64,000 nucleotides of DNA from Acidobacteriota bacterium (GTDB taxonomy: Bacteria; Acidobacteriota; Thermoanaerobaculia; Multivoradales; Multivoraceae), in NCBI GenBank assembly GCA_029263415.1, contig JAJCXN010000046.1, forward strand, positions 248,001 to 312,000, read 5' to 3'. The translations under genes and the position numbers were made by a program. A model generated the notes under the pieces. That model was not told where the DNA came from and made no database searches. It worked only from the letters and a program-made list of their open reading frames with translations. Each line of letters starts with the position of its first letter. Within the stretch, counting starts at the first letter, position 1. Below, one piece after another: positions 1,175-57,137 of the stretch.

Positions 1175-2242
1175 CTAACCCAAAGCCTCGACCATCGCTT
1201 CAACCTCGTCGCCATCAACTTGGACAACCGTTCCCACCTCCGCCGCTCGCCGCTGAATCATCGCCAGCCCGACACCTGCTCCATCGGCCTCGCTGCACGC
1301 GGTGGTTACGGTTCCAGCCGCTCGCCCCTCAAACAACACCTCTGCGCCGGTCTGGACGCGGCTACCGGCATTCCAACGTATTCGCCTTACCACCTTGGGC
1401 GCTTGCCCTCGATAGTGCAGTCGAGCGATCACTTCCTGCCCCAAGTAGCAGCCCTTGGTGAAGTCGATCGCCTCGATCCCTGACTCTTGAGCCAAGTTGG
1501 CTTCGCCGTAGTCGATATCAAAGGCGGGTAATCCATGCTCCACCCGCAGCGGCTCTAGCGCCCCGGCGCCCACCAGCTCAAGGTCAAGCCGCTTCACCCA
1601 CTCTTCGACCACAGGTTCAACGATCGAGCTCGACACCCAAGCGATCAATGCGGGCGCGCCTAACCGTTCGTGGCGCGACACGGGAAGTTGAGTCCCAAAG
1701 AGCTCCACCACACCACCACCCCACGGGGTTTCAGGCCAAACACCCGCAGGCAGGCGATCCGCGATCGCTTCTCCTAACAACGCCAGAGGCACGAGGTCTT
1801 GCAGCGGCAGGACCTCCACTCGATCGGCGACGATGTACTTGGTCAGGTGCTCTCGCACTACTCGCGAACGACCCGGCGGCAGCAACAAGAAGAGGCGGTC
1901 TTCGAAGGCACTGACGACGGCGTCCGCCAGCACCTTGCCCTTGATCGTGGTGACAAAGCCATACACCCCTTGCTCCGGTTCGAGGTCCGCGACCGCCGAG
2001 GTCACCAAACCGCCCAAGAACCGATGCCGGTCGGCGCCAACCAGCTCCAGACGACCGTGGTTGCTTAGATCGAGCAGCCCAGCCGGGGGCAGGCTGCGCG
2101 CAGCGTCGGGCGCGCCATACGACCACGGCACTAACACCCCGCGGTCAGCCCGAAAGGTTGCGCCGTGCGCTTCATGCCACCCATGCAACCGCAATTTTCG
2201 CGGCGCCGGGCTCTCGCGTTGGTCGCCGCCAACGGTAGGCAC
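1175..2242 (-). CDS. ygfZ: YgfZ/GcvT-family folate-binding protein
   Basis: YgfZ proteins bind tetrahydrofolate and help repair or mature Fe-S enzymes; they are paralogues of the glycine-cleavage T protein. The family signature KGCYLGQEVIARLHYRG lies in the C-terminal third, and the N-terminus LHGWHEAHGATF resembles GcvT. The frame stays open to 2368, but I choose the GTG at 2242 because it overlaps the upstream HAD stop as TAGTG, giving 355 residues, close to the family size. It is third in a leftward operon behind acyl-CoA carboxylase beta and a HAD hydrolase. The family call is firm; the start is likely but not certain. Confidence 0.88.
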   Translation of the reverse strand: MPTVGGDQRESPAPRKLRLHGWHEAHGATFRADRGVLVPWSYGAPDAARSLPPAGLLDLSNHGRLELVGADRHRFLGGLVTSAVADLEPEQGVYGFVTTIKGKVLADAVVSAFEDRLFLLLPPGRSRVVREHLTKYIVADRVEVLPLQDLVPLALLGEAIADRLPAGVWPETPWGGGVVELFGTQLPVSRHERLGAPALIAWVSSSIVEPVVEEWVKRLDLELVGAGALEPLRVEHGLPAFDIDYGEANLAQESGIEAIDFTKGCYLGQEVIARLHYRGQAPKVVRRIRWNAGSRVQTGAEVLFEGRAAGTVTTACSEADGAGVGLAMIQRRAAEVGTVVQVDGDEVEAMVEALG

Positions 2243-2997
2243 TAAGCGTCCATCCCAAGATGGTCTAGGGATGAAACGATCCAGTCCGCGCCGGCTGCTC
2301 GTAGCACCTCCGCTTTGACGAACCCGGTGGTCACGGCTAAGCATTGGATGCCGTGCGCGTGCGCGCAACCAACGTCATTCGCGGTATCGCCAACGACCAA
2401 CACTTCCTCGGCAGCGAACGACCTGCCCGCTTTCGCTACCGCACGCTCGATCGCTGCCGGCGGCAGGTCGGCGCGGGCCGGGCCATCTTCACCGAAGCCG
2501 CCGAAGTCAAAGAATCGGTTGAGGCCGAAGGCCGCAAGTTTGGCGCGACCGCCTCGTTCCCAGTTGCCGGTCACCAACCCCAGGTGTGTGTCGGGTTGTT
2601 GTTGGAGTTCTTCGAGTAAGGGCATCACACCCGGCAGCAGCTCCATTTGGTCCGGATCCAACTCCCGTTCGATCCTTGGCAGATAGAGCTCGCGAATCTC
2701 ATCAAGCCGCCCAAGCACTTGATCGCGATCGTGGCCCGCTCGTTCCAGCAGCTCCACCACGATCTGCGGATCGGTCTTGCCCGAGAAGCTGTAGCCGCGC
2801 CAGTCGCCACGCGAACCAAAGACCGTTTGCATCGACTCGAGAAACATGGGGCCGACTTGGCGGCCGCAGCGAATCAGCGTACCGTCGATATCAAAGAGCA
2901 CCAGCCGCTTCTTGGGGCAGGGTAGCCACGCATCAAAAGTCTCCAGCGGCGCTACGACTTCAGGCACAACGCTCCCCTGTCCATTCTCCTGGCTCAC
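2242..2997 (-). CDS. HAD-superfamily hydrolase, phosphoglycolate-phosphatase-like
   Basis: Predicted cytosolic phosphatase. Motif I is LVLFDIDGTL (nucleophile Asp plus second Asp), motif II is LVTGNW, and motif IV is VLVVGDTANDVGCAHAHG, with a helical cap between motifs I and II. The substrate cannot be read from sequence; phosphoglycolate or another small phosphate ester is a family-level guess. The frame is open to 3111, but GTG at 2997 forms a GTGA overlap with the stop of the upstream carboxylase gene and gives 251 residues, so translational coupling is likely. Its own stop overlaps the ygfZ start. Confidence 0.88.
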   Translation of the reverse strand: MSQENGQGSVVPEVVAPLETFDAWLPCPKKRLVLFDIDGTLIRCGRQVGPMFLESMQTVFGSRGDWRGYSFSGKTDPQIVVELLERAGHDRDQVLGRLDEIRELYLPRIERELDPDQMELLPGVMPLLEELQQQPDTHLGLVTGNWERGGRAKLAAFGLNRFFDFGGFGEDGPARADLPPAAIERAVAKAGRSFAAEEVLVVGDTANDVGCAHAHGIQCLAVTTGFVKAEVLRAAGADWIVSSLDHLGMDA

Positions 2998-4655
2998 GTT
3001 TGCAGCACTCCGGTTCTGAATGGTCCTGGCTCGCCACCCAGGCTGGTCACTGCCAAACAGTGTGAGATCACCTGCCTGGTCTGCGATGGATGGATGATCC
3101 CGTCGGTCCATAGGCGACTCGCTCCGTAGCGTGGATCGAGCGCCTCTTCGTACTTGGCTCGCACACTGTTCAAGAGTTCGGCCTTTTCCTCTTCAGACGG
3201 ACTACGATTGCGCAGTTGGATCGAGAGCAAGGTCTGGCTCGCCTGTTGTGCGCCCATCACCGCGATCGCTGAGGAGGGCCAAGCGAACACAAACCGCGGC
3301 CCATACGCTTTGCCGCACATGGCGTAGTTACCGGCACCATACGAGTTGCCGACCACAATGGTTATCTTCGGCACCACCGAGTTAGCAACCGCGTTCACCA
3401 TCTTGGCGCCGTCCTTGATGATGCCACCGCGCTCTGCGCGCGATCCGACCATGAAGCCGGTCACATCCTGCAGGAAGATCAACGGGATCTTCTTCTGGTT
3501 GCACAGCTGCACGAACCGGGCGCCTTTGTCGGCCGAATCCGAGTAGATCACTCCGCCGACTTGAACTTCTTTGTCGCGCTCGCCGGTGCCAGTCCGCTTG
3601 TGTACCACTTGGCGTTGGTTAGCCACAATACCGACCGCCCAACCATCGATGAAGCCTGTGCCGCAGAGCAGTGTCTGTCCGTAGTTCTCTTTGAACTCAT
3701 CGAACTCGCCTCCATCGAGGATGCGTATCAGGATCTCACGCATCTCATAGGGTTTGGTGCGATCCAGCGGGAAAACACCGGTGAGCTCGCCGGTGGGCCT
3801 GCTCGGAGCCTTCGGCTCGCGCCGGTGGTAGGGGCCTGGCCCTGCCGTTCCGAGTTGGGCAAACTGAGAACGGATCTTCGCGAGACAATCAGCATCGGTT
3901 TCGTGTCGATGGTCGACCACGCCTGAGACATCCGCTTGAACCAAGGCGCCGCCGAGTTCTTCGTTCTCGATCTGCTCGCCAATCGCGGCCTTGACCAAGA
4001 ACGAACCCGCTAGGAAGATCGAACCCGTTCCTTCGACAATGTGTGACTCGTCGCTCATGATCGGCAGGTACGCACCGCCCGCAACACAAGGCCCCATGAC
4101 CGCGGCGATCTGCAAGATACCTTCGGCCGAAAGCCGTGCATTGTTGAAGAAAGCGCGGCCGAACTGCTCTTTGTCCGGGAAGATCTCGTCTTGCATGGGC
4201 AAGAACGCGCCCGCGGAATCGACCAGGTAGACGATCGGCACGCGATTTTCGAGGGCGATCTCCTGCGCTCTTAGGACCTTCTTGCAAGTCGCGGGGAACC
4301 ACGCCCCGGCTTTGACGGTCGCGTCGTTGGCAACAATGACGGCATCTCGACCGGAGATAATCCCGAGCCCCACCACCACTCCCGCCGCGGGACAGCCACC
4401 CCACTCCTCGTACTGGCCCCAGGCGCTCCACAAGCCCAGTTCAAGGAAGTCCGAGCCCGAGTCGATCAAGGCCGCCACCCGCTCGCGAGCGCTCATCTTG
4501 CCCCGCGCTCGCTGCTTTTCGAGTCGCGCCTCTCCTCCACCCATCCGGATCTCAGACGCTTCGCGCTCGAGCGCCGTCCACTTCTTCTCCCAGAAGTCAT
4601 GGCGTCGCTCGAATAGGTCGTCGCGCTCGATCTTGGTTGTCAGCTTGGAGGTCAT
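2994..4655 (-). CDS. acyl-CoA carboxylase beta subunit (carboxyltransferase, methylcrotonyl-CoA type)
   Basis: Carboxyltransferase subunit of a biotin-dependent acyl-CoA carboxylase; it moves CO2 from carboxybiotin to an acyl-CoA. The 553-residue length and motifs fit the methylcrotonyl-CoA carboxylase beta branch: YLVDSAGAFLPMQDEIFPD and GPCVAGGAYLPIMSDE in the N-terminal half, and FLQDVTGFMVGSRAE, GNSYGAGNYAMCGKAYGPRF and the acidic GERDKEVQVGG segment in the C-terminal half. Propionyl- or geranyl-CoA as substrate is possible. The biotin carboxylase/BCCP alpha subunit is not in the window. It leads the operon with the HAD hydrolase and ygfZ. ATG at 4655; no strong Shine-Dalgarno is seen. 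Confidence 0.93.
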   Translation of the reverse strand: MTSKLTTKIERDDLFERRHDFWEKKWTALEREASEIRMGGGEARLEKQRARGKMSARERVAALIDSGSDFLELGLWSAWGQYEEWGGCPAAGVVVGLGIISGRDAVIVANDATVKAGAWFPATCKKVLRAQEIALENRVPIVYLVDSAGAFLPMQDEIFPDKEQFGRAFFNNARLSAEGILQIAAVMGPCVAGGAYLPIMSDESHIVEGTGSIFLAGSFLVKAAIGEQIENEELGGALVQADVSGVVDHRHETDADCLAKIRSQFAQLGTAGPGPYHRREPKAPSRPTGELTGVFPLDRTKPYEMREILIRILDGGEFDEFKENYGQTLLCGTGFIDGWAVGIVANQRQVVHKRTGTGERDKEVQVGGVIYSDSADKGARFVQLCNQKKIPLIFLQDVTGFMVGSRAERGGIIKDGAKMVNAVANSVVPKITIVVGNSYGAGNYAMCGKAYGPRFVFAWPSSAIAVMGAQQASQTLLSIQLRNRSPSEEEKAELLNSVRAKYEEALDPRYGASRLWTDGIIHPSQTRQVISHCLAVTSLGGEPGPFRTGVLQT

Positions 4656-4666
4656 AGGTTCACATC

Positions 4667-4727
4667 AGATCACGAACAAAACAGGGGGCTACGCAGTGTC
4701 GGATCATAGCCGCGAACGTCGTGATCT
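4667..4727. repeat. 9-bp inverted repeat between mccB-like gene and moaD
   Basis: AGATCACGA at 4667-4675 is exactly repeated in inverse as TCGTGATCT at 4719-4727, 43 bp apart, in the divergent gap. It could be an operator pair or the foot of a long hairpin; no family is recognised. Confidence 0.4.
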
Positions 4728-4763
4728 AGGCGGCGCGTGACGCAGACACCGGACGATGCCGCG

Positions 4764-4778
4764 TACAATGGTGCGATG
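4764..4778 (+). promoter_or_regulatory. -10 element directly before moaD start (possible leaderless transcript)
   Basis: TACAAT at 4764-4769 matches the sigma-70 -10 consensus in 5 of 6 positions and is followed by only 6 nt before the ATG at 4776, which would place transcription initiation on or next to the start codon. No convincing -35 is visible. Confidence 0.4.
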
Positions 4779-5030
4779 AGAATTCACCTGCTGGCCTTCG
4801 CCAGCGCATCTGAAGCCATCGGGGCACCCGAACGTGACTACCGACTGCCCACAGAGGAAGGCCCACCCACCGTGTCCGATCTCAAAGCAGCACTGAGTGA
4901 GGACTTCCCGCAAGTCAAGGAACTGTGGCAACGACTCGCGGTGTCGATCGACGGCGAGATCGTTTCAGACGCAGAGGCCCTGCACGAAGGCGCCGAGGTC
5001 GCCCTGCTGCCGCCCGTCTCCGGCGGTTAG
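4776..5030 (+). CDS. moaD: molybdopterin synthase small subunit MoaD
   Basis: Ubiquitin-fold sulfur carrier of molybdopterin synthase; its C-terminal glycine is thiocarboxylated and donates sulfur to precursor Z. The 84-residue product has the beta-grasp pattern (MRIHLLAFASASEAIG at the start, DGEIVSD in the middle) and ends in LLPPVSGG, the diagnostic Gly-Gly tail. The frame extends upstream to 4737, but the ATG at 4776 gives the usual N-terminus. It is followed 2 bp later by moaE, its partner. No other molybdenum-cofactor gene is nearby, although a molybdopterin-type oxidoreductase lies 3 kb downstream. Confidence 0.92.
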   Translation: MRIHLLAFASASEAIGAPERDYRLPTEEGPPTVSDLKAALSEDFPQVKELWQRLAVSIDGEIVSDAEALHEGAEVALLPPVSGG

Positions 5031-5032
5031 AG

Positions 5033-5485
5033 ATGCCTGCCCTTTGCAGCGAGGCCTCAGCGCGCGCGGCCATCACCACCTCGCCGCTCGACCACGCGGC
5101 CTGCGACCGCATCCTGAATTCGGTCGAAGATGACGCCTCAGGCGCAGTGGTGCTGTTCAGCGGCAACGTGCGCAACCACCACCAAGGACGAACGGTGGAA
5201 GCGATCACGTACACCGCTTATGAGGCCATGGCTCAGCAACGTCTTGAACGGATCGTTGAAGAACTCAGCACCGACACCGTCACCGTGGCGATCCACCATC
5301 GCATCGGTCGATTAGAGGTCGGCGAATCGAGCGTCGTTATCGCCACCGCTTCACCACACCGCGAGGAAGCGTACGCCGCCAGCAGACAAGCTCTCGAACG
5401 CTTGAAGGCCGAGGTGCCGATCTGGAAACGCGAGCACTACCATGGCGGCGAGTCGCGCTGGCGCGAAGAAGAAGCGCTCGGCTAG
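5033..5485 (+). CDS. moaE: molybdopterin synthase catalytic subunit MoaE
   Basis: Large subunit of molybdopterin synthase, which inserts two sulfurs from MoaD thiocarboxylate into cyclic pyranopterin phosphate. The 150-residue length is normal. Visible family features are GAVVLFSGNVRNHHQGR, ITYTAYEAMA, AIHHRIGRLEVGESSVVIA and the active-site PIWKREHY near the C-terminus with its conserved lysine. I start it at ATG 5033, 2 bp after the moaD stop; the frame is open further upstream but that part only overlaps moaD. Cotranscription with moaD is near certain. Confidence 0.94.
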   Translation: MPALCSEASARAAITTSPLDHAACDRILNSVEDDASGAVVLFSGNVRNHHQGRTVEAITYTAYEAMAQQRLERIVEELSTDTVTVAIHHRIGRLEVGESSVVIATASPHREEAYAASRQALERLKAEVPIWKREHYHGGESRWREEEALG

Positions 5486-5494
5486 CTCCGAGAG

Positions 5495-6844
5495 CTACCA
5501 GCCAGCAGCAATCGTTTGGTCTCGCCGGTCGACCAGCCAAGTGCGAAAGCGTGCATCGAGTTCGTCCCAAGTCCCGCCTAGGTGCTCGCGCAGAGCGTGC
5601 CCCGTCGCTTGCTCACCGCGGGCAACTCCAGAAAGAAACGCGTGGAACTTGACCCGAGTCGACGGGTCTTGAAGTAGATGATCGATCCACAAGGCTGACT
5701 GCGCATAGAGCAGCGGCGCCCGGTTGGCGTTGAGAAAGAGTTCCTGCTCGAGCACGGTCAGCTGCTGCAGGCCGAGCAGTTCTCCGCTCTCTGCGAGCTC
5801 TGCTAGCAGGCGCAACGAGGCCAGCGGTCCGGTGTAGCGAATCTGCTCTAACTCCACTACTCGAAAGCGATCATCACGTTCGGGATAGGGCCTACCCCGA
5901 AGAAGGGCCAGGTGGTCAGCCAGGCCCTCGGTCAACCAAGGCTGTAGACCCGGGCCAATCGCACGACGACTCAAGAGGTGGCCGATCTCATGTACCAACG
6001 TCGCCTCCACCTCCCACGGCGGGCGACCGGCTGCGGCCAAGGCGGCCATGCCGCCGCTGGTATGGCCAGCGCTTGCAGTCCCCGCAATGCCATCCGTCTG
6101 CGACTGCAAGGCACGGTAAGAAGCGTAGGTCGCATACAAAATCACCGTCTCGCGCGGAACACCGACCGGGACCACGCCATACAGATCCGTGTAGGTTCTC
6201 TCGATGGACGAGAGCGAGGTGCGCGCAGCATCCAGAAGATCGCGCGTCTTCTGAGATTGCGGCAGGTCAGTCCAGATCGAATAGCCTGCAAGATCCACTC
6301 GGCGTGCCGAGCCTCGAAGATGCGCACGTGCAATCTCGAACTGGGCGGGATCGATCGGTCGCGAATGCAACGGGCCGGGTGGCAACGCCGCCTCTCCCAG
6401 CGGTGGCGTCAGATCTCGAGGCTCGGCATCATTCAGCCAAGCGCTTGTTCCGTCCGGTAACACCAGCTGAAGCCAGCTGCCACGGCGTTCTAAGACGTCG
6501 TAGCTAGCAAGGGTGGTGGTGGTCATCAGTAGCTCGCCGCGTCCCGGAGTGGCGTACAGGTGAGCGCCTGTTCCGATCCACTCGCGATCAGATCCGTCGG
6601 GCTCCTCGGGAACGCCCGCAAGATCTTTGCTCTGTGATTTAGAAGCGGTGTTGAGCGCTGGTCTTCCGAGGAAGGGTCGGCGAACCTCGTCGAACACGCC
6701 ACCAACGATCGGCACCGACGCTACCCGCTCGAACACCGGGTGGTCCGGTTGCCTGGTCATCCAAGCGAACAGACCGACCGCACTGACCGCCGCGAGCACC
6801 ACCGCAGTCGGCATCAGTTCTCGAATGCGAGTGCTCCAGGGCAT
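5495..6844 (-). CDS. membrane-anchored zinc metalloprotease-like protein (HExxH) with SH3-like region
   Basis: Not assigned to a named gene. Residues about 11-28 form a single N-terminal membrane segment, so most of the 449 residues should face the periplasm. Residues about 100-150 (GAHLYATPGRGELL through DGTSAWL) resemble a bacterial SH3/GW-type fold. The catalytic motif is HEIGH at about 285-289 with a third ligand candidate Glu about 16 residues on, in LTEGLADH; this spacing is that of gluzincins. Substrate unknown; cell-wall or protein processing is only a guess. Its ATG lies 1 nt after the stop of the RsbU-type phosphatase gene, so the two are probably coupled. Confidence 0.8.
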   Translation of the reverse strand: MPWSTRIRELMPTAVVLAAVSAVGLFAWMTRQPDHPVFERVASVPIVGGVFDEVRRPFLGRPALNTASKSQSKDLAGVPEEPDGSDREWIGTGAHLYATPGRGELLMTTTTLASYDVLERRGSWLQLVLPDGTSAWLNDAEPRDLTPPLGEAALPPGPLHSRPIDPAQFEIARAHLRGSARRVDLAGYSIWTDLPQSQKTRDLLDAARTSLSSIERTYTDLYGVVPVGVPRETVILYATYASYRALQSQTDGIAGTASAGHTSGGMAALAAAGRPPWEVEATLVHEIGHLLSRRAIGPGLQPWLTEGLADHLALLRGRPYPERDDRFRVVELEQIRYTGPLASLRLLAELAESGELLGLQQLTVLEQELFLNANRAPLLYAQSALWIDHLLQDPSTRVKFHAFLSGVARGEQATGHALREHLGGTWDELDARFRTWLVDRRDQTIAAGW

Positions 6845-46971: not shown

Positions 46972-47424
46972 ATGGCCACTTTTCTCGCCCTCGACTTCGG
47001 CGAAGCCCGGACCGGAGTAGCGCTTGGCGAGAGCGAAACCCAGATCGTGTCTCCCATCTCTACCCTGGTCCGACGATCAGACGAACAACTGATTGAGGAA
47101 ATTCTGGTGCTAGTCCAGAAACACCAAGCAGAGCAGCTGATCCTCGGCCTCCCGAGCCGCCTCGACGGCAGCGAAGGTGATGCTGCGCTCAGGGTGCGGT
47201 CCTTTCACAAGAAACTAGAGACCCGCACTCGACTTCCGGCAACACTGGTCACGGAGACGCTGACCTCGCGCGCGGCCCGTGAGCGTATCGCGACCAACTT
47301 TCCGGGCCAGCGCAGCAAGAAGAGAGCCTCGCGGAGGGTACCGGCAAACCGGCAGGTCGACGCTGTCGCGGCTCAGCTCATCGGAGAGCAATACCTTGAG
47401 CAGTCCCGAGAGGGTGTCTCATGA
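46972..47424 (+). CDS. ruvX: RuvX/YqgF-family putative Holliday junction resolvase
   Basis: RNase-H-fold nuclease implicated in 16S rRNA 5'-end processing and in junction resolution. The first metal Asp is in FLALDFGEARTGVALG; LILGLPSRLDGSEGDAA and VDAVAAQLIGEQYL match the family. The usual DERLTT motif reads TETLTS here (Asp and Arg lost, Glu kept), and a basic insert QRSKKRASRRVPANRQ follows. 150 residues. Overlaps mltG by ATGA, a frequent neighbour pairing. TATAGT at 46881 and TAGAGT at 46957 are possible -10s. Confidence 0.85.
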   Translation: MATFLALDFGEARTGVALGESETQIVSPISTLVRRSDEQLIEEILVLVQKHQAEQLILGLPSRLDGSEGDAALRVRSFHKKLETRTRLPATLVTETLTSRAARERIATNFPGQRSKKRASRRVPANRQVDAVAAQLIGEQYLEQSREGVS

Positions 47425-48467
47425 TCAAGAAACTCTTCTTGCTCGCGTTGATCGGCTCGATCCTCGTGGCGACGGCTGCCGCTCTAAGTTACCGGCACTA
47501 CAAACAGTTCCTAGAGCCATTCCCAGAAGCAGTCGGCCTTGGCGCGGCGGGTGGACGCACCGTTGAGATGACGATCGAAACTGGCACTCCGGCACGCTTG
47601 ATTCTCGATCGTCTCGAAGCCAATGGAGTGCTCTCGAACTCGACGCTCGCCCGCCTCTACCTTGTGCACGTCTTGAAAGACCCACCGCTGCAAGCGGGCC
47701 ACTATGAATTCGAGCTGCCGGCCACTCCGCGGGCGGTCCTCGAGCGCATGATCGATGGCAAGGTCGTGCTCGAAACGGTGACAGTAATCGAAGGCTTGAC
47801 CCTGTTTGAGACCGCTCAACATCTGGCCAGCCAAGGATTCGGCGATCAGCAACGCCTGCTGGACCAAATGAACCGGACCGACCTCATCGCGGATCTCGAT
47901 CCAGCCGCCAGCAACCTCGAGGGGTACCTGTTTCCGGACACGTACTCCTTCGAGCATGGCGTCACCGAAGCAGAGGTGGTCGCGGCGATGGTGGACAACT
48001 TTCGGCGTCAAGCGGGACGGCTCGTGGCCGGCGCTGGCGCTCGCGAGCTGGTGATCCTGGCGAGCATCGTCGAGAAGGAGGCAACCTTGGATGCTGAGCG
48101 ACCTTTGATCGCCGGGGTCTACGCTCATCGGCTGCGGCGAGGCATCGGTTTGTACGCCGATCCAACCATCATCTACGGCAAGAAGCTGGCTGGGACTTGG
48201 AACGGCAACCTCACCCGCAAAGACCTTCGAACCGATTCGGCGTACAACACCTACATGAGACCGGGTTTACCGCCCGGACCGATCTGCTCTCCGGGCAAGG
48301 CCAGCCTCGCTGCCGCAGCACAGCCTTCCGACCTGCCTTACCTCTATTTCGTCAGTCGCAACGACGGCAGTCATGTGTTCTCGGCGACTATCAGCGAGCA
48401 CAATCGCAATGTCGAGAAGTGGCAACGCCAGTACTGGCGTGATCGACGAGCAGCAAACGGTAGGTAA
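47421..48467 (+). CDS. mltG: endolytic murein transglycosylase MltG
   Basis: Inner-membrane lytic transglycosylase thought to terminate glycan strand growth. Residues 4-22 form the membrane anchor. A LysM-like domain (about 50-110) precedes the YceG catalytic domain: EGYLFPDTYSFEHG, LASIVEKEATLDAERPLIAG with the catalytic Glu, LYADPTIIYG, YNTYMRPGLPPGPICSPG and LYFVSRNDGSHVFS. 348 residues, normal. Coupled to ruvX. Confidence 0.96.
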   Translation: MIKKLFLLALIGSILVATAAALSYRHYKQFLEPFPEAVGLGAAGGRTVEMTIETGTPARLILDRLEANGVLSNSTLARLYLVHVLKDPPLQAGHYEFELPATPRAVLERMIDGKVVLETVTVIEGLTLFETAQHLASQGFGDQQRLLDQMNRTDLIADLDPAASNLEGYLFPDTYSFEHGVTEAEVVAAMVDNFRRQAGRLVAGAGARELVILASIVEKEATLDAERPLIAGVYAHRLRRGIGLYADPTIIYGKKLAGTWNGNLTRKDLRTDSAYNTYMRPGLPPGPICSPGKASLAAAAQPSDLPYLYFVSRNDGSHVFSATISEHNRNVEKWQRQYWRDRRAANGR

Positions 48468-48637
48468 CCGGCACCGATCCTTGTGACCTGACGGGCATGT
48501 CGGACCAAAGAAATGCCGCACTGTCAAGCGTCCCGTTGTAGGATTAGTCGCTTCGCCGAACTTCGCCGTTGGACGTGGTCTATGCCACGACCAACCCACC
48601 TCCGCCCAACGCAGAACGCGACTGGAAGAATAGATCC

Positions 48638-50812
48638 ATGGCACACGAGACTTTTGGCCCCTACCTCTTGTTGAAGAAACTGTCCGAGGACATCCTTGGA
48701 GAAGTGTTCCGCGCCGGCCGCCTGCGCGACGGCAACCTCGAGCAAGTGGTGTTGTTGCGCACGTTCAACGGTCGTGCCCTCAACCCTGCGAGCATCTCGC
48801 AGGGCATTGCTCAACGCCAAGGCGTGCAGCAGCTACTCCGCAGCCCCAATCTGGGTCAAGGCATCGATGCCGGTGACTTTCAGGGCATCCCCTACGTAGT
48901 CTACGACTACATCTCGGGCCGGGATCTAGGCTCACTGATGCGCCAGGCTTCGCTGCGAAGCCACCCAGTCCCAACCGAGCACGCGTTGCTGATCGCAGAG
49001 CGGCTTGCCCTCGGCCTTTCGGTCGCCCACGCCACCAAAGTCAATGGCCAACCCGTGCTACACGGTTTCTTGATCCCCGAACTAGTCATGTTGTCGAACG
49101 AGGGCGAGAACCGACTACTAGGCTTCGAGACAGGCCCCGCACTCCGCGCCGCCGACGCCAGCACTCAGATCTGGCAAGACTTCGGTCGCTACTTGTCCCC
49201 CGAAGCCCACGCCGGCGAACCGCTGAGTGCAACCGACGACGTCTACTCGCTGGGCGTGGTACTGCTCGAACTGCTGGTGGGTCACACACTTGAAAGTCTT
49301 GGGCCAAGCTCTCTGCAAGGCGCGATCGCGCAGGTCGGCGGCCGGGGTTTACCCAACGTCGCTGAATTGATCGAGAGGAGTGTCGCACCGAAGGAACAGC
49401 GGATCGTAAATGCCGCAGCGTGGCATCAGGATCTAAGCCGACTAGCGCTGGACCGACAGTCGAGCTCGACGCCTTTTCATCTGGCGTTCTACATGCACAA
49501 TCTCTTCCGCGACGAGATCGAACGAGAGAGCGAAGAAATCGAGCACGAGCGGAGCATCGATTTCTCACAACAGCGGCTGACCGCAGCGCCTGCCCTGGGG
49601 AGTAGTGCCATCCTTCACAACGCGGATGCTGAGCGGCCACTCAGTGCTCCTTCGCTCACTGGTTCCACACCCGACTTGTCCGCGACGGCAGAGGGCGGCG
49701 CACCGGCAGTCGACAACAGCCAAGACGACGACTTCGCAGCGGCAATCGGAGCAGCGCCAAACGTCCCAACCCCGGCCGCAACGACTGCGGCCACCAGCAA
49801 CGCGACCAAACCAACTAAGGCGGAGCCCACAAAATCCAGTAGCAAGATGCCACTATTGATTGCCGCTCTGGTCCTGCTACTTGCCACCGGTGCCTACTTC
49901 GGTTGGAAGTGGTGGTCAGGCAAAGACAGCGCCCCCAACGGTACCCAGATCGCGAGCGCTACTGAGCCCACCGAAATCGCGGGCGGAGCGGCTTCAGATC
50001 CAGCTGATTTGGAGGCTGGTGGCCCTGGCGGCCCGAACGGTACCGAGATCGACGGAGCATCCGATCCTCTTAGCGGCTCAGACGGATCAGAGCCGGTCCC
50101 TGGAGGAGGTCCGGTCGAGGATGCACGAAAGCTCGCTGAGGGTGTCGAGTCGGACACGGTCGACCCAGACGCCGTCCAACGCGAGAACCTGATGGCCGAA
50201 CTGGATCGCCTCGTTGACGAACGCACTAAGAGCGCAGCCTTGGGCCTCAAGCAAGAGTACGACGACGAAGTTAAGCAACTTCGCGACCAACTCGCCGAGG
50301 TCGAGCGTCAGAAAGCAGAGGAGGAGCGCCTTGAGCAGGAAGCTGAGGAGGCCCGCAAGCAAGCTCTGATTGACGAGCAACGCAAGAAGCAAGAGGCCGC
50401 CACCAAGGCTGAAGCCGATCGCAAGGCGTTGGCTGCGGCACAAGCCGCCGAGGCGAAGAAAGCAGCCGACGCAGGTGCCAGTACAGAAGCACCCGCCCCC
50501 CGCAAGGTCCGAGTGGGAGAACTGGTCCAAGCAGGAGCAGGTGTCTCTCGACCGCGGCTCAGTAGCGACATCAAGCCGGTGTATCCTTTCGCGGCACAAC
50601 GGCTACGTAAAGAAGCTGACGTCAGCGTCGACGTGCTGGTCGACGAAAACGGCAAGGTCATCGACACACGGATGGGCGAGAAGGCTGGCTTTGGCTTCGA
50701 TGACGCAGCCCGCGCAGCCGCTAGTCGCGCCGAGTTCGTGCCTGCGAGCACTCAAGGCGTCAAAGTCAAGATGTGGACCACGATCAAGGTGCAGTTCCGA
50801 CTCGAAGGCTAA
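48638..50812 (+). CDS. pseudokinase - TM - coiled coil - TonB C-terminal domain fusion protein
   Basis: 724-residue protein. Residues 1-290 follow a Ser/Thr kinase outline (FGPYLLLKKLSEDILGEVFR, then YLSPEAHAGEPLSATDDVYS for the APE and D-x-W/Y-S region), but the catalytic elements are lost: the loop reads VLHGFLIPELVML where HRDLKPEN is expected, DFG is GFE, and the ATP lysine site reads VVLLRTF. A polar linker precedes one TM helix (MPLLIAALVLLLATGAYFGW, about 403-422), then an Ala/Glu/Lys coiled coil (about 520-615) and a TonB-type C-terminal domain (SDIKPVYPFAAQRLRKEADV ... FVPAST). Orientation: pseudokinase in the cytoplasm, TonB part in the periplasm. ATG 48638 chosen. Confidence 0.85.
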   Translation: MAHETFGPYLLLKKLSEDILGEVFRAGRLRDGNLEQVVLLRTFNGRALNPASISQGIAQRQGVQQLLRSPNLGQGIDAGDFQGIPYVVYDYISGRDLGSLMRQASLRSHPVPTEHALLIAERLALGLSVAHATKVNGQPVLHGFLIPELVMLSNEGENRLLGFETGPALRAADASTQIWQDFGRYLSPEAHAGEPLSATDDVYSLGVVLLELLVGHTLESLGPSSLQGAIAQVGGRGLPNVAELIERSVAPKEQRIVNAAAWHQDLSRLALDRQSSSTPFHLAFYMHNLFRDEIERESEEIEHERSIDFSQQRLTAAPALGSSAILHNADAERPLSAPSLTGSTPDLSATAEGGAPAVDNSQDDDFAAAIGAAPNVPTPAATTAATSNATKPTKAEPTKSSSKMPLLIAALVLLLATGAYFGWKWWSGKDSAPNGTQIASATEPTEIAGGAASDPADLEAGGPGGPNGTEIDGASDPLSGSDGSEPVPGGGPVEDARKLAEGVESDTVDPDAVQRENLMAELDRLVDERTKSAALGLKQEYDDEVKQLRDQLAEVERQKAEEERLEQEAEEARKQALIDEQRKKQEAATKAEADRKALAAAQAAEAKKAADAGASTEAPAPRKVRVGELVQAGAGVSRPRLSSDIKPVYPFAAQRLRKEADVSVDVLVDENGKVIDTRMGEKAGFGFDDAARAAASRAEFVPASTQGVKVKMWTTIKVQFRLEG

Positions 50813-50999: not shown

Positions 51000-51671
51000 C
51001 TAGAGCGTTGCCGCTGCCAAGCTCGCCACCAACTTCTGGCAGGCCGGCTTGACAACGCGATCGAACATGGCGTTGTCCTCAACACCGCCTCCGAAGCCTC
51101 CGACATGGACCTTGGCGCTCTTGGTCTCCTCACGGACATCGTCAGCCCAGACGATCTCGCCCGTTGTGGTGTTGACCAAGCGTGCATTGATCGCTGCGGC
51201 GAATTTGCGCCGCTTTACAGAGACCCGCGGCAAGCCGCGGATACCGGGCGTCCGAGCCGAGGCGTCGCTGTTGCCGTACTCGGTGATGGCTCCGGTGACC
51301 ATGTACTCAACGCCCAAAAGACGACCGGCCTCCACGGCAGTCGCCGCGCTCACGGAGCCCGAGAGCGAAAGATTCTTTTCTCTCAGCAGCGCGTCCAGTT
51401 TCTCGCGCTCGATGACCCGGAACTTGCCGCTCTTAACCAGCTCAGTGACCAGCACTTCTTGCACCGCCCCAGCGCCCTGATTGCGCCACCATGAGTGCCA
51501 GTTCGAGGCCGCGTCGGCGTCGAACTCAATCACAGCAATGCGAGGCTTCTGTGCAGACGCGAGGGTTGAGACGCTCAGCAACAAGCTGAAGGCAACAAGA
51601 ACTGCGATCAACATCGTCCGGGCGGCGATCCCGCGGTGGGAGCTGCCGCGAGTAGTGTTCGAAGAAATCAT
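51000..51671 (-). CDS. exported CsgG/HfaB-family protein
   Basis: 223 residues from ATG 51671, which has AGGAG 9 nt upstream. Signal peptide: MLIAVLVAFSLLLSVSTLASAQ, cleaved near AQ-KP; no lipobox, unlike CsgG itself. KPRIAVIEFDADAAS, FRVIEREKLDALLREKNLSL, AGRLLGVEYMVTGAITEYG and ARLVNTTTGEIVWADDV are the family's conserved strands. CsgG relatives form secretion pores or periplasmic assembly factors; with no curli genes here, the role is open. Convergent with the fusion gene, single gene unit. Confidence 0.88.
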   Translation of the reverse strand: MISSNTTRGSSHRGIAARTMLIAVLVAFSLLLSVSTLASAQKPRIAVIEFDADAASNWHSWWRNQGAGAVQEVLVTELVKSGKFRVIEREKLDALLREKNLSLSGSVSAATAVEAGRLLGVEYMVTGAITEYGNSDASARTPGIRGLPRVSVKRRKFAAAINARLVNTTTGEIVWADDVREETKSAKVHVGGFGGGVEDNAMFDRVVKPACQKLVASLAAATL

Positions 51672-51902
51672 CTGTTCGATCTCCTTGGTATGAGGGGGGA
51701 GGGGGGATGGGAACGTGAACGGCAACAACAAGTAGCCGTCTCGTTGACCCATGGTGAGGCTGGGACGCCTCGATGGGCTCAACGAGTCCAGACCATAGGG
51801 TACGGTTCTGAGTCGGTGTCTACAATAGCGCCACCTTCTCTAATACGAAAACGATAATCGAAACAGGTCACCCAGAACCCGTAGCTCGGGAAAGGCGTGT
51901 GT

Positions 51903-55820: not shown

Positions 55821-57137
55821 CTAAGGACTCTTGACTAGATCGATCTTGACCGTCTCGGTCTCCCCGCTCTTGATGGTGAACTCAACGCGATGACCCTGAT
55901 AGCCGGGACGGGAAATCTCGACCACGTGATCGCCTGCATCGAGCATCAGCGGCGCACCTAGGTCGGCTAGCTGAGCGGCGCCGCCCACCAACTGTCCGTC
56001 AACGTAAATGGCTGCATCCTCGGGTTGGATAGCGAACACCACCTTGGCTGGTTCGGACCGCAAGTCCACCTCGACGCTAGAGGCGGCACGCGAAGAACTA
56101 CCGCGTTGTCGCCATTGGTCACGACTGCGCGGGCTGGCTTGACCTTCAGGGGCTCTTGAGCGTCTCACCGCTTCGGATCCGCTTGCGCCCTGCTCACCGG
56201 CGTCGCGATCGTCATAGCGCCACGGCGCAAGCTGGGTTCGCTTCTCAGCCTTGGCTTGGCGCCCCGGCAGTGGATCCAGTTGCTCGTACATCTTCTCGGG
56301 GGATTTTGCTACGCCCTTGACCATCTTGTCTTTGAGACGGAGTGACCCGCCAGCCTCCAGCTTGATCTGCTTGCCCAGCGTCTCGTATCCCTCGTGGTAG
56401 ATCACCAGGTTGTGAACGCCGGCATCCAACCAGAGGTATCGCGGGAACCCATCGTAGTTGTCTGCGATACCAACCAGCTTCCCGTCCACATAGATCTGGG
56501 CCTCTTCAGGAGAGATATCCAGATCCAGTGCAGCCGCCGATGCGCGATAGTAGGAGCCTCCATAACCGCCACCGCCATAGGCCATGTGTCCGTACGGTGC
56601 GTAGCCATATGAAGCATATGAGCCGACGTACCAGGAGAACGGATAGCCCAGGCCGTAGTAGAAGAACGGGCTGCGGTAGTAGGAGCCATAGCCATAGGAG
56701 CCGCCGTATCGGTACCCGCCACGTCGATGTCGATTGTTGTAGCCACCGCGACCACGACGGTCACCTCGATCGTGTCCCATCGATCCGTTACGGCCACCAC
56801 CTCGGCCAACGTTAGATCCTCCCGAGCCGGATCCACGCGAGCCAGATCCGCCTGGACGGGTGGAGGCAGTAGCCACGCGACCGCTGGAGGCTGCCCTTGA
56901 GGCGGGGGTGGATCGAGTGACGCGACCGTCTCCAGCACTTTCTCCTTGTGCAGACGCAGGCCCAGCAAGGCCAACAAACAGCATGGAAAGCGCGCAAGCC
57001 GTGGTCAGAGCAACTCGGTTCACCTGTGCTAGCGGGCTGCGCACTGGGTTGAGTCCGACCGGCCTAAGTCTCACCAGTCTGAGCCCCACCAGACTTGTCT
57101 TCGCCGCTGGCATCGCCACTTGTTTGCTTGTGCTCAT
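55821..57137 (-). CDS. exported PEGA-domain protein with Gly/Tyr-rich middle
   Basis: 438 residues. A basic, repetitive region of about 43 residues precedes the signal-like segment TTACALSMLFVGLAGPASAQ. Residues about 75-200 are Gly/Ser then Gly/Tyr-rich (GGYRYGGSYGYGSYYRS). Two PEGA domains follow: LDLDISPEEAQIYVDGKLVG (about 205-270) and VVFAIQPEDAAIYVDGQLVG (about 365-435), separated by a charged linker. PEGA modules are extracytoplasmic and usually bind carbohydrate or protein. AAAGGAGAGG is a strong Shine-Dalgarno before ATG 57137; GTG 57023 would trim the extra N-terminus but lacks one. Confidence 0.85.
   Translation of the reverse strand: MSTSKQVAMPAAKTSLVGLRLVRLRPVGLNPVRSPLAQVNRVALTTACALSMLFVGLAGPASAQGESAGDGRVTRSTPASRAASSGRVATASTRPGGSGSRGSGSGGSNVGRGGGRNGSMGHDRGDRRGRGGYNNRHRRGGYRYGGSYGYGSYYRSPFFYYGLGYPFSWYVGSYASYGYAPYGHMAYGGGGYGGSYYRASAAALDLDISPEEAQIYVDGKLVGIADNYDGFPRYLWLDAGVHNLVIYHEGYETLGKQIKLEAGGSLRLKDKMVKGVAKSPEKMYEQLDPLPGRQAKAEKRTQLAPWRYDDRDAGEQGASGSEAVRRSRAPEGQASPRSRDQWRQRGSSSRAASSVEVDLRSEPAKVVFAIQPEDAAIYVDGQLVGGAAQLADLGAPLMLDAGDHVVEISRPGYQGHRVEFTIKSGETETVKIDLVKSP

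Follow-up and report, generated by a model that had tools for sequence, protein, structure and literature searches.

What might a bacterial membrane protein do with a kinase fold stripped of its catalytic residues at one end and a TonB-type C-terminal domain at the other? The question is raised by an open reading frame in the window analysed here, a stretch of 64,000 nucleotides from an Acidobacteriota bacterium, in which positions 48638 (ATG) to 50812 (stop) of the plus strand encode a protein of 724 amino acids. The same frame is already open from a TTG at 48569, and the alignment with orthologues starts at about the ATG at 48638. Promoter-like and terminator-like sites near the gene (one against 0.3 expected and four against 2.9 expected, respectively) are not relied on, and there are no Rfam matches near it. 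Bacterial pseudokinases are little studied, and this family offers a defined membrane layout, a putative periplasmic docking domain, and a repeated link to the transglycosylase MltG in one class. The protein is probably a functional, non-enzymatic signalling or scaffold component of the cell envelope.

The full-length AlphaFold model (pLDDT 78.6) runs from a kinase fold and juxtamembrane helices, ending at residue 306, through disorder, a transmembrane helix at 405–427, further disorder, and a long helix to a TonB_C domain reaching residue 720. The pseudokinase domain (residues 1–273; 48638–49456, on the plus strand like all parts of the gene) is delimited by alignments, position counts, the predicted structure, and comparison with the PDB. 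It leads into the juxtamembrane segment (residues 274–306; 49457–49555), modelled as helices at 279–289 and 291–306 and bearing the family motif (P)TTFNLAFFMHNLFR, which is near-invariant in the family alignment A3. A cytoplasmic linker, mostly predicted to be disordered (residues 307–403; 49556–49846; pLDDT below 50 for 320–391 and 393–403), precedes a single transmembrane helix without histidine at about residues 404–427 (49847–49918), placed by the full-length model and the alignment rows. The charges flanking this helix suggest that the kinase domain lies inside and the TonB_C domain in the periplasm, so that the next segment, again predicted to be disordered (residues 428–509; 49919–50164), would be a periplasmic linker. 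It is followed by a single modelled helix of 94 residues (510–603; 50165–50446), presumably a coiled coil, and by the TonB_C domain (residues 626–724; 50513–50809), delimited by Pfam and the model and matched by Pfam at 646–722 (E 4.1e-13; 50 bits against a cut-off of 24.6). The Pfam Pkinase match at residues 65–218 (E 1.5e-7; 31.5 bits) falls slightly below its curated cut-off of 31.7. An earlier, sequence-only reading of the locus had proposed a membrane crossing, a coiled coil, and a TonB-type end. The first and last are borne out by the single modelled helix and the Pfam match; the long helix may pair as a coiled coil, and the protein may dimerise.

The N-terminal region is predicted with confidence to adopt a kinase fold (residues 1–313; pLDDT 94.6, pTM 0.92; AlphaFold with a 52-row alignment). 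The best 50 PDB matches listed are all kinases, with Z-scores of 23.9–26.3, and PknA, PknI, and PknB score 25.3, 25.0, and 24.3. The modelled bilobal fold places the domain in the protein-kinase-fold superfamily, but all four of its catalytic residues are replaced, and it is therefore not an active Hanks-type kinase. Arg41 takes the place of the β3 lysine, His-Gly-Phe (142–144) that of HRD, with Phe144 at the position of the aspartate, Leu149 that of the asparagine, and Gly-Phe-Glu (162–164) that of DFG, with Gly162 at the position of the aspartate. A predicted kinase fold, combined with loss of the catalytic motifs in homologues too, makes the protein a pseudokinase, presumably inactive.

These losses were followed across 67 aligned members, comprising 52 rows of A3, two of them the stand-alone pseudokinases L104 and L110 that have no TonB_C, and 15 loci from elsewhere in the phylum. 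Loss is complete for HRD, with neither its aspartate nor its arginine present in any of the 67, but only partial for the other motifs, the β3 lysine being kept in five, the asparagine in three, and the DFG aspartate in 11. Of the four catalytic residues, any one member retains at most two. The loci left out of A3 (L079, L086, L099, L115, L117, and L126) show no HRD aspartate either, L099 having no letters at HRD and L117 having an aspartate at the DFG position. Structural positions are kept: Pro147 and the F-helix Asp201 in all 67 members, the HRD histidine (His142) in 64, and the DFG phenylalanine in 47. Both the fold and the alignments thus uphold the earlier description of a kinase outline without the catalytic lysine, HRD aspartate, asparagine, and DFG aspartate. 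Homologues with intact HRD and DFG, which that reading named as a refutation, do not occur inside the family; a separate clade of active kinases does have these motifs intact. The divergent members L113 and L166 have both the β3 lysine and the DFG aspartate and no HRD motif. Judged by these residues, residual nucleotide binding is possible in the divergent members that keep the DFG aspartate, L113 and L166 included.

The pseudokinase–TonB_C protein is not a one-off: it belongs to a family that several groups of Acidobacteriota have conserved. It is present in 36 of 60 genomes searched, the source genome included (best piece at E ≤ 2.3e-54 in each), and absent from the other 24, namely all 21 genomes of a genus of the same taxonomic family, here termed g2, together with G054, G056, and G059. 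Scanned with patterns derived from Thermoanaerobaculia, which under-count distant members, 84,980 species genomes yielded at least 79 loci. Of these, 57 exceed 120 bits against the pseudokinase profile, on which no bona fide kinase scores above 81 bits. A TonB_C match lies in the same open reading frame in 52 of these 57; three run off the contig, and two, L104 and L110, are without one. All 57 are labelled Acidobacteria/Acidobacteriota, Thermoanaerobaculia, Vicinamibacteria, or Holophagales, except L064 (Deltaproteobacteria) and L084 ("uncultured bacterium"). The 159 of 396 genomes matched at 1e-25 mix dead and active members and are not a count of the family. Pfam at E 0.01 does not detect the TonB_C domain of L164, which a profile built from the family does. 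The stand-alone proteins of L104 (5875–7005) and L110 (5965–7074), 369–376 amino acids long, have the same HGF and a degraded DFG. L203, whose contig is as long as that of L088, carries two dead-kinase–TonB_C genes in tandem (1543–3642 and 3648–5603), the first of which is immediately preceded by MltG in L088. An apparent pseudokinase–TonB_C–CsgG fusion in L095 (5917–9000) is an assembly artefact: its frame crosses a stretch of N, after which another frame gives the usual TonB_C end and a stop.

In the window, the gene follows those for RuvX (46972–47424, plus strand; Pfam RuvX, E 4.9e-30) and the MltG/YceG endolytic transglycosylase (47421–48467, plus strand; Pfam YceG, E 2.3e-77), both conserved neighbours by synteny, and it converges with a gene for a CsgG/LpoB-like secreted protein (51000–51782, minus strand; Pfam CsgG, E 1.8e-32, and LpoB, E 1.8e-10). 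A PEGA-domain protein with an N-terminal part rich in glycine, tyrosine, and arginine is encoded further along (55821–57137, minus strand). Among 37 stretches fetched around orthologues, several of them cut by contig ends, MltG is found in 34, RuvX in 32, thiolase in 31, LptD in 27, and the CsgG/LpoB-like protein in 17. In the loci L063–L099, the gene is immediately preceded by a co-directional MltG in 34 of 37 cases, the exceptions being L069, near which MltG is absent, L076, where it is 3.3 kb away, and L081, where it is inverted. MltG is also found near L131 and near the divergent members L169, L170, and L175 of the same class. MltG is nearby in none of 20 loci (L100–L118 and L126) and in three of 15 (L161–L175), some of these stretches being short. 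The link is therefore strong in one class, that of the source genome, and is not universal. In L113, L118, and L166, the gene immediately precedes a series of genes resembling, by eye, an F-type ATP synthase operon.

The separate clade of active kinases has its valine-alanine-isoleucine-lysine (VAIK), HRD, DFG, and asparagine motifs intact in all 21 rows of alignment A5, and a TonB_C domain in 16 of the 21; two run off the contig and three are without it. Its members, such as L156, L159, and L200, combine a kinase, a similar juxtamembrane stretch, a transmembrane helix, and TonB_C. A receiver domain exceeds the Pfam cut-off in L159 and L200 and not in P0002, the three scanned, and appears below the cut-off in L196. 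This clade was not found in the source genome, and its members could serve as controls for work on their dead relatives. In a tree of 70 selected kinase domains, the dead, the active TonB_C-linked, and the other kinases each fall on one side of a branch (SH-aLRT 99); which two groups are sisters depends on the root of this unrooted tree. The TonB_C tree, which is weak and built on few columns, intermixes domains linked to dead and to active kinases. Together, the two trees suit, without proving, a kinase–TonB_C layout that arose once, either before catalysis was lost or at about that time. Obligate pairing between pseudokinase and active clade is ruled out by their distribution over the 60 genomes, of which 25 have both, 11 (the source genome included) only the pseudokinase, two only the active kinase, and 22 neither, active kinases being scored at E 1e-80 to the kinase domain and 27 genomes counted by that match alone. 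Outside g2, no association between the two is visible.

The 21 g2 genomes (G001 and G004–G023) display a collapse of the Ser/Thr kinome within one genus, with two to four Pkinase matches each and at least 15 in each of the other 39 genomes, where scoring stopped at about 35. MltG is retained in 20 of the 21 and the pseudokinase in none. HMM searches at seven MltG loci (five from g2, and those of G054 and G059) detected no pseudokinase and no TonB_C; at L185 of g2, one of four loci with tabulated neighbours, RuvX and MltG are followed by another gene. The pattern is in keeping with dependence of the protein on active kinases, as a single event in one genus, but the pseudokinase is also absent from G054, G056, and G059 despite their 16–31 kinase matches.

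We would give an even chance to the reading of the protein as a receptor-type pseudokinase, one that scaffolds or tunes signalling in the envelope and may do so together with MltG. The cytoplasmic kinase fold, having lost its catalytic and most of its nucleotide-binding residues, would serve as a platform for protein binding. The transmembrane helix, the flexible segment, and the 94-residue helix would hold TonB_C in the periplasm, where its docking site might be peptidoglycan or a protein of the periplasm or outer membrane. How this end is placed, or in what state it is, would be relayed to the cytoplasmic scaffold, which would in turn hold or tune a partner; the candidates are an active Hanks-type kinase and the machinery of envelope growth around MltG. 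There are two precedents: in Enterococcus, MltG is phosphorylated by the membrane Ser/Thr PASTA kinase IreK, with which it associates (PMC12369325), and the membrane pseudokinase YukC/EssB scaffolds an envelope machine (PMC12599244). The full kinase fold, the loss of motifs with structural residues kept, the spread of orthologues and their recurrent TonB_C end, the MltG synteny, and the loss in g2 speak for this receptor-type scaffold, as does purifying selection on the kinase part (dN/dS 0.012–0.217 for kinase plus juxtamembrane segment in eight pairs; Nei–Gojobori). Against it stand the restriction of the MltG link to one class, the dispensability of active-clade pairing, the three kinase-bearing genomes without the protein, the singularity of the g2 event, and the retention of the DFG aspartate in some members. 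The MltG of the window also begins MIKKLFLLALI and so has almost no cytoplasmic tail for phosphorylation or binding, unlike Enterococcus MltG. With the kinase dead and this tail minimal, any link to MltG would be by binding. In a bolder version, the protein would do with MltG the job of Gram-positive PASTA kinases and MltG without phosphorylation, its TonB_C tip on a helix of about 14 nm reading peptidoglycan or the periplasmic span and its dead kinase recruiting or restraining active kinases or wall-growth machinery; we regard this version as rather unlikely.

The protein might instead be a structural tether that passes no signal, the dead kinase acting as an anchor or dimeriser on the inner-membrane side and the long helix with TonB_C as a passive link to peptidoglycan or the outer membrane. 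Such a role would suit the conservation of the periplasmic helix and TonB_C, the envelope and housekeeping genes around the locus (LptD, MltG), and the suggestion, in a review of the Ton motor, of a possible part for the C-terminal dimer of TonB in binding peptidoglycan (PMC9022066). It has only a minor share of the probability, since the kinase domain is the slowest-evolving part, having the lowest dN of three regions in seven of eight pairs (it is the fastest in the exception, L113/L166, which also counts against the receptor-type scaffold), and since the juxtamembrane motif TTFNLAFFMH, near-invariant in A3, is among the most conserved stretches.

Improbable, too, is another catalytic activity of the pseudokinase fold, of the kind reported for SelO, which transfers AMP, or SidJ, which glutamylates. 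Repurposed pseudokinases do exist (PMC12599244), and two conserved acidic residues speak for this reading, Glu164 of the Gly-Phe-Glu that replaces DFG (kept in 34 of 52 A3 rows) and Asp18 of the glycine loop (36 of 52). Glu164, however, gives way to proline, glycine, or alanine in the 15 extra members, the β3 lysine position is arginine in most rows, and the HRD aspartate position is phenylalanine, leucine, cysteine, methionine, tyrosine, or valine in all 52 A3 rows, leaving no conserved acidic residue there.

The sequence-only reading had also envisaged a signal or transport coupler and had remarked that no ExbBD is nearby. The remark stands for ExbD, whose three matches in the genome are all on contigs C4 and C9 and none on C46, which holds the window. 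A TonB energy transducer with a cytoplasmic regulatory pseudokinase, driven by the genome's ExbB–ExbD, would make use of these and of the clear TonB_C domain, yet it is very improbable. The transmembrane helix lacks histidine in all 28 rows of alignment A1 and all 43 of A4, which share proteins. In E. coli TonB, the functional transmembrane histidine is that of Ser16/His20, and TonB(H20A) is inactive (PMC11658791). The source genome has canonical-looking TonBs elsewhere, two of them with histidine in the transmembrane helix by eye and one adjoining two ExbD genes, and seven of its other TonB_C domains group apart from the kinase-linked ones (SH-aLRT 100, on few columns). Energy coupling, and with it an ExbBD-driven transport coupler, is accordingly judged unlikely. 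What survives of the coupler is its cytoplasm-to-periplasm layout, with the usual phosphorylation chemistry lost, and the protein may act as a coupler of signals. A decaying kinase or pseudogene, for which the lost catalytic residues might be taken, is scarcely credible given the intact reading frame, the low dN/dS, and a single layout conserved across deep divergences, and because relatives in several Acidobacteriota groups share this layout, the gene probably encodes a working, non-enzymatic protein. Matches to 17 PADLOC families of anti-phage defence (among them PD-T4-6, MkoA, and mad6) fall for the most part within the kinase domain and are thus generic, and a defence role was set aside.

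Membrane pseudokinases and TonB_C domains are each already known; their fusion was not found described in the titles and abstract openings searched, a scope that excludes subscription papers, preprints, and supplements, and the words TonB and Acidobacteri are both absent from a review of bacterial pseudokinase families (PMC12599244). According to that review, the YukC/EssB and MviN (ActPs3) pseudokinases are scaffolds or peptidoglycan-linked; judged by this description, they share with the present protein a dead kinase fold in an envelope-tied membrane protein and differ in lacking its TonB_C end, in their motif residues, and in not being its Acidobacteriota lineage. The GLW pseudokinases, as described there, likewise have HRD replaced, the β3 lysine lost in a leucine-rich strand, and a transmembrane helix after the kinase, but they carry GLW at HRD and occur mainly in Proteobacteria, whereas the Acidobacteriota family has HG[FLCMVY], with HGF in the present protein and His-Gly-X in most rows. 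TonB energy transducers share the TonB_C domain; the present protein differs from them in a transmembrane helix without histidine, in having no ExbBD partner beside it, and in its cytoplasmic kinase fold. The active kinase–TonB_C proteins of Acidobacteriota have the same order of kinase, similar juxtamembrane motif, transmembrane helix, and TonB_C, with intact catalytic motifs and a longer N-terminus that includes a receiver domain in some. The PASTA-type kinases PknB, StkP, and IreK also combine an N-terminal kinase fold with a juxtamembrane linker, a single transmembrane helix, and an extracytoplasmic end, and the best NCBIfam score of the present protein is to the PknB/Stk1 model (75.9 bits against a cut-off of 450). 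Unlike them, it has no catalytic residues and no PASTA match in Pfam at E values up to 10, bears a long helix and TonB_C in the place of PASTA, and is encoded beside an MltG without a cytoplasmic tail.
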